The position numbers and the translations under genes are program-made. A DNA stretch of 41,938 nucleotides, taken from contig JAIPGO010000025.1 of assembly GCA_021736135.1 (NCBI GenBank), positions 1-41,938 of the forward strand. Direction: 5' to 3'. Source of the DNA: Candidatus Cloacimonadota bacterium (GTDB taxonomy: Bacteria > Cloacimonadota > Cloacimonadia > Cloacimonadales > TCS61). This document shows, piece by piece, positions 33,028-36,143 of this stretch (positions are counted from its first letter, which is position 1; each line of letters starts with the position of its first letter). The notes below the pieces were generated by a model. That model was not told where the DNA came from, made no database searches, and saw only the letters and a list, made by a program, of their open reading frames with translations.

Positions 33028-33432
33028 TTCTACAAATAGATAATCCCTCCGGGATAAACGCCCAGGGTTGAATTGATGTTTTCTACAAATAGATAATTCC
33101 TACAGAATAAAGATAATGGGTGTTACTTATTTATTCTACAAATAAATAATCCCTTCGGGATAAACATCATGAATTATGCTGATGTTTTTCTACAAATAGA
33201 TAATCCCTACGGGATAATGATTTGGTTGTTGTGTCGATATTTATCTACAAATAAATTATCCCTACGGGATAAACTCTATGGGCTGGATCGATTTTTTTCT
33301 ACAAATAGATAATCCCTACGGGATAAACTCTATGGGCTGGATCGATTTTTTTCTACAAATAGATAATCCCTACGGGATAAACGACATTGTGGAGCAATAT
33401 TGTTCTATAAAGAGATAATCACAGTGGGATAA
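33028..33432. repeat. REP-like hairpin array 1, forward-oriented units (type A)
   Basis: Seven clear units (near 33028, 33081, 33134, 33189, 33243, 33298 and 33351) plus one degenerate unit (near 33403). Each has TTCTACAAATAGATA followed by a hairpin ATCCC-TAC-GGGAT and TAAA. Loops vary (TAC, TCC, TTC) while stems stay paired; the second unit has ATTCC with AGAAT, a partly compensated stem. The spacer between units contains a recurring GGGCTGGATCGAT in the last copies. The region 32895-33027 before it holds nothing I recognise. Confidence 0.92.
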
Positions 33433-33447
33433 ATATCATATTGGAAT

Positions 33448-33795
33448 ATGTTTTCCGCGTAGCAGATATCTATTTGTAGAATATAATGTATCACCCCCCA
33501 CCTTTTTCCGCGTAGCGGATATTTATCTGTAGAACAATATGTCTCACACCCCTGTTTTTTCCGCGAAGCGGATATTTATTTGTAGAATATTATATATCAC
33601 ACCTTACCTTTTTCCGCGTAGCGGATATTTATTTGTAGAACAATAAGTCTCACTCCCCTGTTTAATCCGCGTAGCGGATATTTATTTGTAGAATATTATA
33701 TATCACACCTTACCTTTTTCCGCGTAGCGGATATTTATTTGTAGAATATAATGTATCACCCCCCACCTTTTTCCGCGTAGCGGATATTTATTTTT
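33448..33795. repeat. REP-like hairpin array 1, reverse-oriented units (type B)
   Basis: Seven units whose CCGCG starts lie at 33455, 33508, 33561, 33614, 33667, 33720 and 33773, an exact 53-bp period. Each reads TTTTCCGC-GTA-GCGGA then TATTTATTTGTAGAA. The reverse complement of the tail is the TTCTACAAATA head of the type A units, so these are the same element in opposite orientation with a different stem (CCGC/GCGG in place of CCC/GGG). The last unit loses its tail before the transposase gene. Confidence 0.92.
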
Positions 33796-33852
33796 CTGGA
33801 CATAATATTTTCTTTATATAACTTAAACCATATAACTTAAGGAGAATATGAT

Positions 33853-34320
33853 ATGAAACCCGGTACATTTACCCAGCTTTATATCCATCTAGTATTTGCT
33901 GTTGAACATCGAGATTCGATGATCAGGGATAATGTAAAAGAAGATGTGATTAAGATCATGAGCAGCATAATTAACAACATGAAACATAAAACTATTTGTA
34001 TCAACACAATGCCTGATCATATCCACATATTGCTCGGATTGAATCCTTCCTTATCCTTATCAGAGACGGTTAAAGAATTAAAACGGGGATCAACCTTTGC
34101 ATTCAATGAAATTAAGCTGTTCCCCTGCCAATTTAACTGGCAAAGCGGATATGGCGCATTCTCTTACAGTAGATCGCAATTGGACAGTGTATGCAAATAC
34201 ATTCAGAATCAAGAAAAGCACCATCATAAGATATCATTTAGAGAGGAATATCAACAATTTCTGGAGAAATTTAAAATCGAGTACAATAAAGATTATTTAT
34301 TCATATTCCATGATAAATAA
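33853..34320 (+). CDS. IS200/IS605-type Y1 transposase (TnpA), RAYT-like by context
   Basis: This 155-residue single-domain HUH/Y1 transposase cuts and joins single-stranded DNA at hairpins. The metal-binding pair is in MPDHIHILLG (H56-x-H58). The nucleophile is Tyr116 in VCKYIQNQEKHH, with the helper Gln120 four residues later. Other family marks are FTQLYIHLVFAVEHR and WQSGYGAFSYSRSQ. AAGGAG precedes the ATG, so the gene seems functional. No accessory tnpB is present. It is placed exactly between two large arrays of hairpin repeats, which recalls REP-associated transposases (RAYTs), although its length is closer to plain IS200 TnpA. The upstream TATATAACTTAA-like direct repeat (about 33816-33840) may be part of an end or promoter. 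Confidence 0.92.
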   Translation: MKPGTFTQLYIHLVFAVEHRDSMIRDNVKEDVIKIMSSIINNMKHKTICINTMPDHIHILLGLNPSLSLSETVKELKRGSTFAFNEIKLFPCQFNWQSGYGAFSYSRSQLDSVCKYIQNQEKHHHKISFREEYQQFLEKFKIEYNKDYLFIFHDK

Positions 34321-34356
34321 TCCATGCAAAATTTAGAACATGGGAGGTGCGATGTT

Positions 34357-34820
34357 TCTCTACAAATAAATAATCCCTACGGGATAATGAATTGGTTGTT
34401 GTGCCGATATTTATCTACAAATAAATAGTCCCTATGGGATAAACTCTCTGGATTGGATCGATTTTTTTCTACAAATAAATAATCCCTACGGGATAAACCC
34501 TCTGGGCTGGATCGATGTTTTTCTACAAATAAATGATCCCTACGGGATAAACTCTCTGGGCTGGATCGATGTTTTTCTACATATAGATAATCCCTACGGG
34601 ATAAACTCTCTGGGCTGGATCGATGTTTTTCTACAAATAAATGATCCCTACGGGATAAACTCTCTGGGCTGGATCGATGTTTTTCTACAAATAGATAATC
34701 CCTACGGGATAAACTCTCTGGGCTGGATCGATGTTTTTCTACAAATAGATAATCCCTACGGGATAAACGACATTGTGGAGCAATATTGTTCTATAAAGAG
34801 ATAATCACAGTGGGATAAAT
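34357..34820. repeat. REP-like hairpin array 2, forward-oriented units (type A)
   Basis: Eight units plus the same degenerate ninth unit as in array 1 (TTCTATAAAGAGATAATCAC). From about 34500 to 34735 the period is exactly 54 bp (GGGCTGGATCGATG at 34504, 34558, 34612, 34666 and 34720). Each unit has the TTCTACAAATA head and a TCCC-TAC-GGGA hairpin; one has TCCC-TAT-GGGA. The last full unit and the degenerate unit copy 33351-33432 almost base for base. Confidence 0.92.
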
Positions 34821-34836
34821 ATCATATTGGAATATG

Positions 34837-35063
34837 TTTTCTGCGTAGCAGATATCTATTTGTAGAATATAATGTATCACCCCCCTCCTTTTTCCGCGTA
34901 GCGGATATTTATTTGTAGAACACAATGTATCCCCCCTCCTTTTTCCGCGTAGCGGATATTTATTTGTAGAACACAATGTATTTCCCCTCCTTTTTCCGCG
35001 TAGCGGATATTTATTTGTAGAACACAATGTATTTCCCCTCCTTTTTCCGCGTAGCGGATATTT
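34837..35063. repeat. REP-like hairpin array 2, reverse-oriented units (type B)
   Basis: Five units; the CCGCG cores are at 34894, 34945, 34996 and 35047 (51-bp period), preceded by a variant unit at 34837. That variant has TCTGC-GTA-GCAGA, which keeps base pairing by a compensating change relative to TCCGC-GTA-GCGGA. The final unit runs to within seven bases of the ABC permease stop codon (35070). The short open frame across these units on the minus strand only translates the repeat. Confidence 0.9.
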
Positions 35064-35069
35064 AAATCT

Positions 35070-36143
35070 CTATCTTTTCCGGTAATTCAGCACGGCTATG
35101 GTTTGCATAATTATTCCCATTACTATCAAAACAACCAGTTCCATCTGTAATTCCAGGAAGCCGGAGCCTTTGAGCATGATGCTGCGCATCACGCGGATGA
35201 AATAGGAGAGCGGGACAAATTTCGTCATTACTTTTGCCCAGTCCGGCATGGATTCAATGGGGGCAAAAAGTCCGCTGAGAAAGAGGAAGATCATCATCAT
35301 AAAAAACGCCAGGAATAATGCCTGCTGCTGATTTCCCGCAACCGTGGAGATGAATAATCCGATGCCGCACATAACCACCAGATAAAAGAAGAGATATACA
35401 TAAAGCAGCAGAATGTTTCCCAGATGAGGTACGCCAAACACGACGATCGCCAGAATAAGCCCCAGACTGAATTCCACGATGCCGATGATCAGCATCGGGA
35501 TCAGCTTGCCGAGGATATATTCATACTTGCGAATAGGTGTAACGTTGATCTGTTCCTGGGTGCCGATCTCTTTTTCCCGCACGATATTCAGTGCCGTGAG
35601 AATGATCCCGATCACTGAAACCAGCATCACGAGTATGCCGGGAACCATATAGCTCTTGTAATTCAATTCCGGATTATAAAGATAGCGGCTTCTGACCTGT
35701 TTTTGTTCCTGGACTGCCCATTTATTGATCACTCCGGCGATATAGGAAGCGGCAACTTCGGCTGTTGCCCCATCGATAGCATTCAGCCGTATCTGAATAT
35801 TTCCCGTTCTATCCTGCTGCAGATTTTTTTCAAATCCCGCTTCTATGGCAATTATGGCTTCCACTTCATCTTTCGCCAGCAGTTCATCATTCTTTTCCTG
35901 GTTGAGGTCAAGGGCAGTCAGTTCAAACCACTCATTAAAAGTAAAATCCTCGATCAGCTCGGCGGAGAGGCGGCTTTTATCAAAATCCTCAATTGCCAGC
36001 CGCAGTTGCTTGATCTCATAATCGGCAGCATTGGAAAGGATCAGAAGCTGAATTACGGGCATTGCCAGGATCACCAACAGCATGGGTCTGCTGCGGAATA
36101 TCTGGCGGAATTCCTTTTTGAGAATGATCAATATCGTGCGCAT
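35070..36143 (-). CDS. ABC-2 type exporter permease (YbhR-like)
   Basis: This 357-residue ABC-2 membrane subunit has one N-terminal helix (about 20-38), a large extracytoplasmic domain (about 45-165), and five helices in the C-terminal half. The ABC-2 signature region NIVREKEIGTQEQINVTPI precedes the second block, and PLSYFIRVMRSIMLKG is near the end. It is homologous in layout to the permease encoded by the next gene, so the pair likely forms a heterodimer, as YbhS-YbhR does. A G-rich ribosome-binding site (AGGGGGGGGAAC) precedes the ATG. It is the last gene of the exporter operon; the hairpin repeat array begins just after it and may act as its 3' end. Confidence 0.9.
   Translation of the reverse strand: MRTILIILKKEFRQIFRSRPMLLVILAMPVIQLLILSNAADYEIKQLRLAIEDFDKSRLSAELIEDFTFNEWFELTALDLNQEKNDELLAKDEVEAIIAIEAGFEKNLQQDRTGNIQIRLNAIDGATAEVAASYIAGVINKWAVQEQKQVRSRYLYNPELNYKSYMVPGILVMLVSVIGIILTALNIVREKEIGTQEQINVTPIRKYEYILGKLIPMLIIGIVEFSLGLILAIVVFGVPHLGNILLLYVYLFFYLVVMCGIGLFISTVAGNQQQALFLAFFMMMIFLFLSGLFAPIESMPDWAKVMTKFVPLSYFIRVMRSIMLKGSGFLELQMELVVLIVMGIIMQTIAVLNYRKR

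Follow-up and report, generated by a model that had tools for sequence, protein, structure and literature searches.

The window, a contig of 41,938 nucleotides from a Candidatus Cloacimonadota bacterium, carries a gene for a Y1 transposase, tnpA, between two arrays of short hairpin units. The question raised by this locus is what kind of system such an arrangement represents; the original prediction took it for a REP/RAYT-type system outside Proteobacteria. Our analysis indicated that the window probably holds a REPtron-like locus, in which a Y1 transposase of subclass 1.2 lies among its cognate hairpin units. The system works like a REPtron but is not a RAYT.

The transposase and its hairpin arrays

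The window TnpA matched Y1_Tnp (PF01797) at 1.1e-25 with its catalytic HUH and Tyr intact, and carried the motifs DHIH, WQ and YIQNQEKHH. It scored 70.5 bits with the IS200 model NF033573, above the cut-off of 55, and 29.3 bits with the RAYT model NF047646, far below the cut-off of 80; the Y...NP motif was absent. The nearest solved relatives by sequence were the TnpA proteins of ISDra2 and IS608, and the AlphaFold2 model (pLDDT 95) matched ISDra2 at 5.5e-9, with the RAYT 4er8 at rank 30 (5.1e-5). The window protein is a TnpA_Y1 of subclass 1.2, a class-1 (IS200-like) protein nearer to IS608 and ISDra2 than to the RAYTs of class 2. It matches subclass 1.2 of Quentin et al. (2018; PMC6006769) in the signature Y---Q--HH, in DH[IV]H and WQ, in size and in low copy number, and the Y...Q..HH signature was present in 72 of 74 intact relatives. 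Quentin et al. reported the subclass from Bacteroidetes, in <4% of the species surveyed; they describe its copy number as low, its role as unknown and its genes as generally lacking associated hairpins, the last being a descriptive statement and not a defining feature of the protein. Whereas no secondary structures are listed for it there, arrays of at least two units were found here at 61 of 81 loci, and other phyla were added. A search of the open-access literature returned no paper tying subclass 1.2 to hairpin repeats.

The arrays were recovered at the positions and in the order originally described, with forward A units, a degenerate unit and reverse B units on each side of the transposase gene (Table 1). 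Read on its own strand, each unit follows the plan TTCTAC-AAATARATA-(5-bp stem)-(3-nt loop)-(stem)-AAA, the A unit being TTCTAC-AAATARATA-ATCCC-TAC-GGGAT and the B unit, on the minus strand, TTCTAC-AAATAAATA-TCCGC-TAC-GCGGA. Linkers within an array are near identical, and the array junctions (33234-33533 and 34620-34919) are 97% identical, so the arrays are largely copies of each other in which the number of units changed later. The neighbours of tnpA encode MATE and ABC-2 transporters. Comparison of the units with Rfam gave no real match to a known RNA, and a CRISPR-like array was rejected, the linkers being repeated rather than unique spacers and cas genes being absent nearby.

Table 1. Positions of the transposase gene and of the hairpin units in the window.
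Feature	Position	Strand	Description
Array 1	33028-33799		Seven A units, one degenerate A-like unit, seven B units
Array 1 A units (n=7)	33028..33381	+	Box TTCTAC-AAATARATA, stem ATCCC/GGGAT, loop TAC/TTC/TCC, spacing 53-55 bp
Array 1 A unit starts	33028, 33081, 33134, 33188, 33243, 33297, 33351	+	
Degenerate A-like unit, array 1	33403..33433	+	TTCTAT-AAAGAGATA-ATCAC-AGT-GGGAT; also in array 2
Array 1 B units (n=7)	33451..33799	-	Hairpins 33454-33784; stem TCCGC/GCGGA, loop TAC/TTC, spacing 53 bp
Array 1 gene-proximal B unit	33772-33799	-	Core AAATAAATA kept; CCAGAA replaces TTCTAC
tnpA	33853..34320	+	155 aa, Y1 HUH transposase, TnpA_Y1 subclass 1.2; between both arrays
Array 2	34358-35073		Eight A units, degenerate unit, five B units
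Array 2 A units (n=8)	34358..34767	+	Starts 34358 to 34737; spacing 54-55 bp
Degenerate A-like unit, array 2	34789..34819	+	Identical to array 1 copy
Array 2 B units (n=5)	34837..35073	-	Hairpins 34840-35058; spacing 51-53 bp
Array 2 outermost B unit	35046-35073	-	Core degraded, without TTCTAC

Folded as single-stranded DNA, the A unit gave a hairpin of -3.8 kcal/mol (z about -3.0) and the B unit one of -4.8 kcal/mol (z about -3.4). The compensated stem changes described earlier were present (TCTGC/GCAGA at 34840, ATTC/GAAT at 33081), together with one uncompensated change (TCTGC/GCGGA at 33454). For the analysis of covariation, 47 distinct units of the same genome were picked by the 15-nt 5′ box alone, ignoring the stem, and four units with a stem shifted by one base were omitted from the alignment. 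The results showed that 93.2% of stem cells pair, against 64.5% in shuffles, and that stem covariation reached 0.709 against a shuffled value of 0.220 +- 0.029, the shuffle count not being a probability because the units are mutually related. Double changes occurred at all five pairs, and covariation fell to 0.04-0.14 when the partner was slid by one base. The claim that the folded form is under selection was thereby borne out on units chosen without regard to their stems.

A conserved unit plan around related genes

Order-level relatives carried the gene in 52 of 99 genomes, with their own kinds of repeated hairpins near it. A wider set of 80 loci with flanks was found in named genomes by protein profile alone, mostly in Bacteroidota, with Ignavibacteria, Chlorobiota and one Poribacteria MAG. 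The comparison with related genomes that had been proposed for this locus revealed the same unit plan around their genes: the fixed pattern of box and hairpin occurred within 700 bp of tnpA at 64 of the 80 loci and more than 2.5 kb away at 4, corresponding to 1.52 units per kb within 700 bp against 0.012 per kb beyond 2.5 kb. Hairpins in general reached 5.6-6.1 per kb within 500 bp of tnpA on either side, compared with about 1.2 per kb further out, and repeated hairpins 2.3-2.6 per kb near the gene and almost none further out. Most relatives had one to three copies of the subclass-1.2 gene; one genome (G106, locus L171) had ten.

A position-weight model trained, without location, on 399 gene-near hairpins, with 253 hairpins as controls, returned, in positions counted back from the loop, CTAY (-18 to -15) followed by AAAnATnnC (-14 to -6). 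The motif held 3.95 bits in the gene-near hairpins against 0.74 in the controls, gave an AUC of 0.81-0.85 on held-out loci and, when trained without the window, ranked the window units above 96-97% of control hairpins. Stems of relatives were mostly RYCCC or similar, and loops mostly TAC, TTC, TAAC or TCC. The GTAG originally noted in both loop and flank therefore survives in part: the flanking CTAY is conserved in relatives, whereas the GTAG of the loop (CTAC on the unit strand) is not, and it was rejected as a REP mark.

The layout around the gene was also regular. The nearest upstream unit was reversed at 48 of 58 loci and the nearest downstream unit forward at 56 of 66, the combination (-,+) being found at 38 loci and (+,-) at 1; thus the box faces the gene and the units point outward. 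Successive units usually lay 49-53 bp apart, and 80 of 147 spacings were 45-56 bp. Although CTAY positions had played no part in unit selection, CTAY (TTAY counted too) preceded 123 of 146 later units against 23 of 117 first units of arrays, a difference whose p value of 4e-27 overstates independence. In first units the core is kept and the tetranucleotide is not; in last units homology stops just past the hairpin. These arrays can be written as core-(linker-CTAY-core)n, the core being AAAnATnnn plus the 5-bp hairpin and the linker roughly 27 nt ending in CTAY, and 61 loci across phyla share one phase. Cores often stand 1-29 nt from the start or end of tnpA. In the window, the two B arrays fit the edge rule, with first units CCAGAA-AAATAAATA and ATAGAG-ATTTAAATA, but the A arrays break it, beginning with a full CTAC and a partial linker unlike most first units. 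We also examined an IS608-type guide rule, by which pairing with a guide 5′ of the hairpin selects the cleavage site. Columns -15/-14 and -6 were interdependent but not complementary, and confounded by descent; the dependence followed no complementarity rule, and pairing of CTAY with the four bases preceding the stem was not confirmed.

Dispersed units in relatives and in the genome of the window

Three relatives were searched for dispersed units, and reversed control patterns gave 0 matches in all three. G078, with a single tnpA, had 45 matches, whose stem GTCTC/GAGAC is also that of its tnpA locus; the 37 copies inspected all lay between genes, mostly as direct dimers at 52-53 bp, and conservation dropped upstream of about -14 before the stem, with no long flanking element in common. 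G077 had 34 matches with stems GTCCC/GGGAC or GTTCC/GGAAC, and G080 had 14, every one at tnpA. Elsewhere, G106 carried about ten units on contigs mostly without tnpA; Bacteroidota copies were few and mostly near the gene, and most Flavobacterium had units at the tnpA locus only. Further palindromes (GAGCTCGCTGCGCGAGC, GGCGGGCTACGCCCG) adjoin the dispersed units of G078 (L235-L254), suggesting composite BIME-like mosaics.

In the genome of the window (4.14 Mb), the A pattern with up to three mismatches gave 18 matches, 15 of them in the window, and the B pattern 13, 10 of them in the window; reversed A and B control patterns gave 0 matches across the 4.14 Mb. The original prediction had named units found only here as an outcome that would speak against it. 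In this genome such confinement held for the exact A and B stems. It did not hold for the unit type, copies of which are scattered here, inside a MITE, and in relatives. Another 50 or so sites carry the box, many of them at the ends of contigs; there the units form inverted pairs, their A-like (AGTCC/GGACT) and B-like (TCCCC/GGGGA) stems flanking a long variable palindrome. These pairs occupy the centre of a 430-bp element bounded by GAGACTGTTCAAC ends and by 8-bp duplications that were read by eye (ATGCAACC, TCCCATTT, TAAGACTT). This MITE of about 430 bp is present in at least 25 copies, many at contig ends (L086-L138, e.g. L131, L138 and L124; L018-L020; L031-L033), and its long GC-rich internal palindrome has a loop that occurs in two orientations, GGCGGAGCC and GGCTCCGCC. 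The autonomous, MULE/Mutator-type partner of the MITE is probably a 1.83-kb insertion sequence (L146, G000 C105, about 293-2120 in the locus), which encodes a MULE/Transposase_mut protein, has the ends GACACTGTTCA/TGAACAGTCTC and is probably flanked by a duplication of TCCGCCCT. Since the related units lie inside a DDE-type MITE, the last mover in this genome was probably another transposase, and dispersal of A and B units by TnpA was not supported here.

Besides the window tnpA, the genome holds one 46% paralogue, a second subclass-1.2 tnpA (L002, G000 C123:6153-9545) with its own units, TCTCTYATTAG plus an 8-9 bp stem. Its hairpin families are CCCCCGAT/AATCGGGGG, CACCCAAAT/ATTTGGGTG and GTGGC/GCCAC, and unit variants with double-compensated stems occur on seven other contigs. 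A unit family of its own for each gene is a trait of REPtrons (PMC6006769). The genome is rich in palindromic elements in general. A repeat with the same start, TTCTACAAATTAACA-CGGTTAATTTACTCCAAA, but a different palindrome (L140, G000 C14:5300-7300; L100, L106, L111) forms a tandem array of about 99 bp and scattered copies, and long near-perfect palindromic repeats (CCAAGAGTTTTGAACGGTACTCCGGGCAAGACTTTTG...; ATCACCCCGTAGCTGCCCACATCACGTGATAAC...) lie at L019 1150-1230, L020 1085-1225 and 1800-1870, and L002 815-950.

Known systems and competing explanations

The protein class and fold are those of IS200/IS605 elements such as IS608 and ISDra2, in which a hairpin serves as the recognition element, as it would here. 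The tetranucleotide junction 5′ of the hairpin here resembles the TTAC that precedes the left end of IS608. PATE-type elements are non-autonomous derivatives of IS200/IS605. IS200/IS605 elements have a single pair of left and right ends, whereas inverted multi-unit arrays, one to three genes and units in trans are found here. REP/RAYT systems of E. coli, Pseudomonas and Stenotrophomonas resemble this locus in several ways: a Y1 gene of low copy number has cognate hairpins on both sides, the hairpins form inverted pairs and clusters, stems are specific to the genome, and copies are dispersed between genes (dispersed cognates occurring here in G078, G077 and G106). They differ in having GTAG/GTGG at the 5′ foot, whereas the units here have a RATA/nnTC foot and CTAY 9 nt before the stem, and in lacking the regular tandem arrays of about 50 bp with fixed phase and the 155-aa class-1 protein. 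A further likeness is with the short, perfect 5-bp REPs, with a 4-nt loop, of the Marinomonas REPtron Mb (PMC8266576). Cleavage by RAYTs takes place at a CT dinucleotide on the 5′ or 3′ side of the REP, with GTAG as a possible guide (PMC8266576), and the conserved CTAY includes CT. GTAG- and CGTC-tagged REPs likewise form dispersed palindromes and dimers, and CGTC hosts include Bacteroidetes and Chlorobi; in CGTC REPs, however, the stem is 8-9 bp and the loop 4-5 nt long, and the authors describe no association with transposase genes as their rule (Di Nocera et al., 2013; PMC3733652); identity with them was rejected on these grounds. The proposal of a REP/RAYT-type system outside Proteobacteria, which rests in its taxonomic part on the named relatives, accordingly stands for the way of working (low-copy Y1 gene, cognate hairpins, genome-specific stems, intergenic copies in relatives, structural conservation) and falls for family membership, the protein being of class 1 rather than class 2 and the units lacking the 5′ GTAG/GTGG foot.

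Three other explanations were weighed. The locus might be a conventional IS200/IS605-like insertion sequence whose transposase moves its own element only, the hairpin ends having been multiplied passively by slippage or unequal crossing-over into functionless by-products. The kinship of TnpA in fold and sequence with ISDra2 and IS608, the close and symmetrical flanking of the gene, and the near-identical linkers, as after recent tandem duplication, are consistent with this, and arrays would also grow by slippage once a first duplication existed. We nevertheless regard it as unlikely, because neither the dozens of dispersed units beside one tnpA in G078 nor the G106 units that lie apart from tnpA are copies of a complete insertion sequence; inverted pairs and arrays take the place of a single left and a single right end; the array phase recurs at 61 loci across phyla; and a usually multi-copy family is here mostly at one to three copies per genome.

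Movement of the units by other transposons, with the hairpin pairs being parts of a DDE-type MITE and the arrays at tnpA coincidental, draws on the dispersed units inside the 430-bp element with its TIR and 8-bp target duplications, and on the C105 Mutator/MULE element with similar ends and a matching duplication. Against this, the TIR GAGACTGTTCAAC was not found on the window arrays, the association with subclass 1.2 recurs in 80 independently found loci of other phyla, and the conserved stretch in G078 ends near the unit. This explanation is largely refuted as a general one and very improbable for the locus; it stands for the dispersal in the genome of the window. Still more improbable, in our judgement, is a host function of the arrays as structured RNA or DNA (terminators, stabilisers of mRNA or protein-binding sites), with a domesticated transposase maintaining them. 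The intergenic position of all the inspected dispersed copies in G078, the window array between two convergent transporter genes, the selection for folding seen in the stem covariation, and the side roles of this kind known for REPs (PMC3733652) would suit such structures, whereas a conserved T-tract and an Rfam match are lacking, the conserved unpaired box and CTAY are unnecessary for a terminator, and the close grouping of units at tnpA speaks foremost for an enzyme substrate.

The association with the gene, the unit plan, the stem covariation, the orientation, the array edges between CTAY and AAA, and the dispersed cognates beside few transposase genes together argue for the REPtron-like locus; the confinement of the exact A and B stems to the window in their own genome, the position of the dispersed related units there inside a MITE, the confinement of units to tnpA in several relatives (G080, most Flavobacterium), the unusual start of the A arrays of the window and the unconfirmed guide rule count against it. 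In such a locus, we infer that TnpA would bind the hairpin on single-stranded DNA, either on the lagging strand or in an exposed cruciform, and that its tyrosine Y116 may cut between CTAY and AAA, a candidate cleavage and joining site suggested by the array edges. Cut units could then be joined to other CTAY sites, so that TnpA would be the maker of tandem arrays that expand and shrink, the piece by which they grow being the unit of about 50 nt bounded by two sites cut after CTAY. In some genomes, joining in trans may seed unit copies between genes. We lean modestly towards the broader view that subclass-1.2 Y1 transposases form a third, widespread transposase-plus-REP lineage distinct from RAYTs, with units of roughly 50 nt exchanged at CTAY-AAA junctions between tandem arrays and scattered sites, and with stems that diverge between genomes and match the local gene.

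In the survey of Quentin et al., subclass 1.2 had neither a role nor a partner DNA. The hairpin arrays likely give it both, and many more Bacteroidota members are reported here. Because the substrate is shared and its layout fixed, the biochemistry of subclass 1.2 becomes directly testable. The findings suggest more than one origin, from IS200-like enzymes, of domesticated REP-type transposases acting on single strands, and subclass-1.2 units would account for a class of short palindromes between genes in Bacteroidota and allied phyla.
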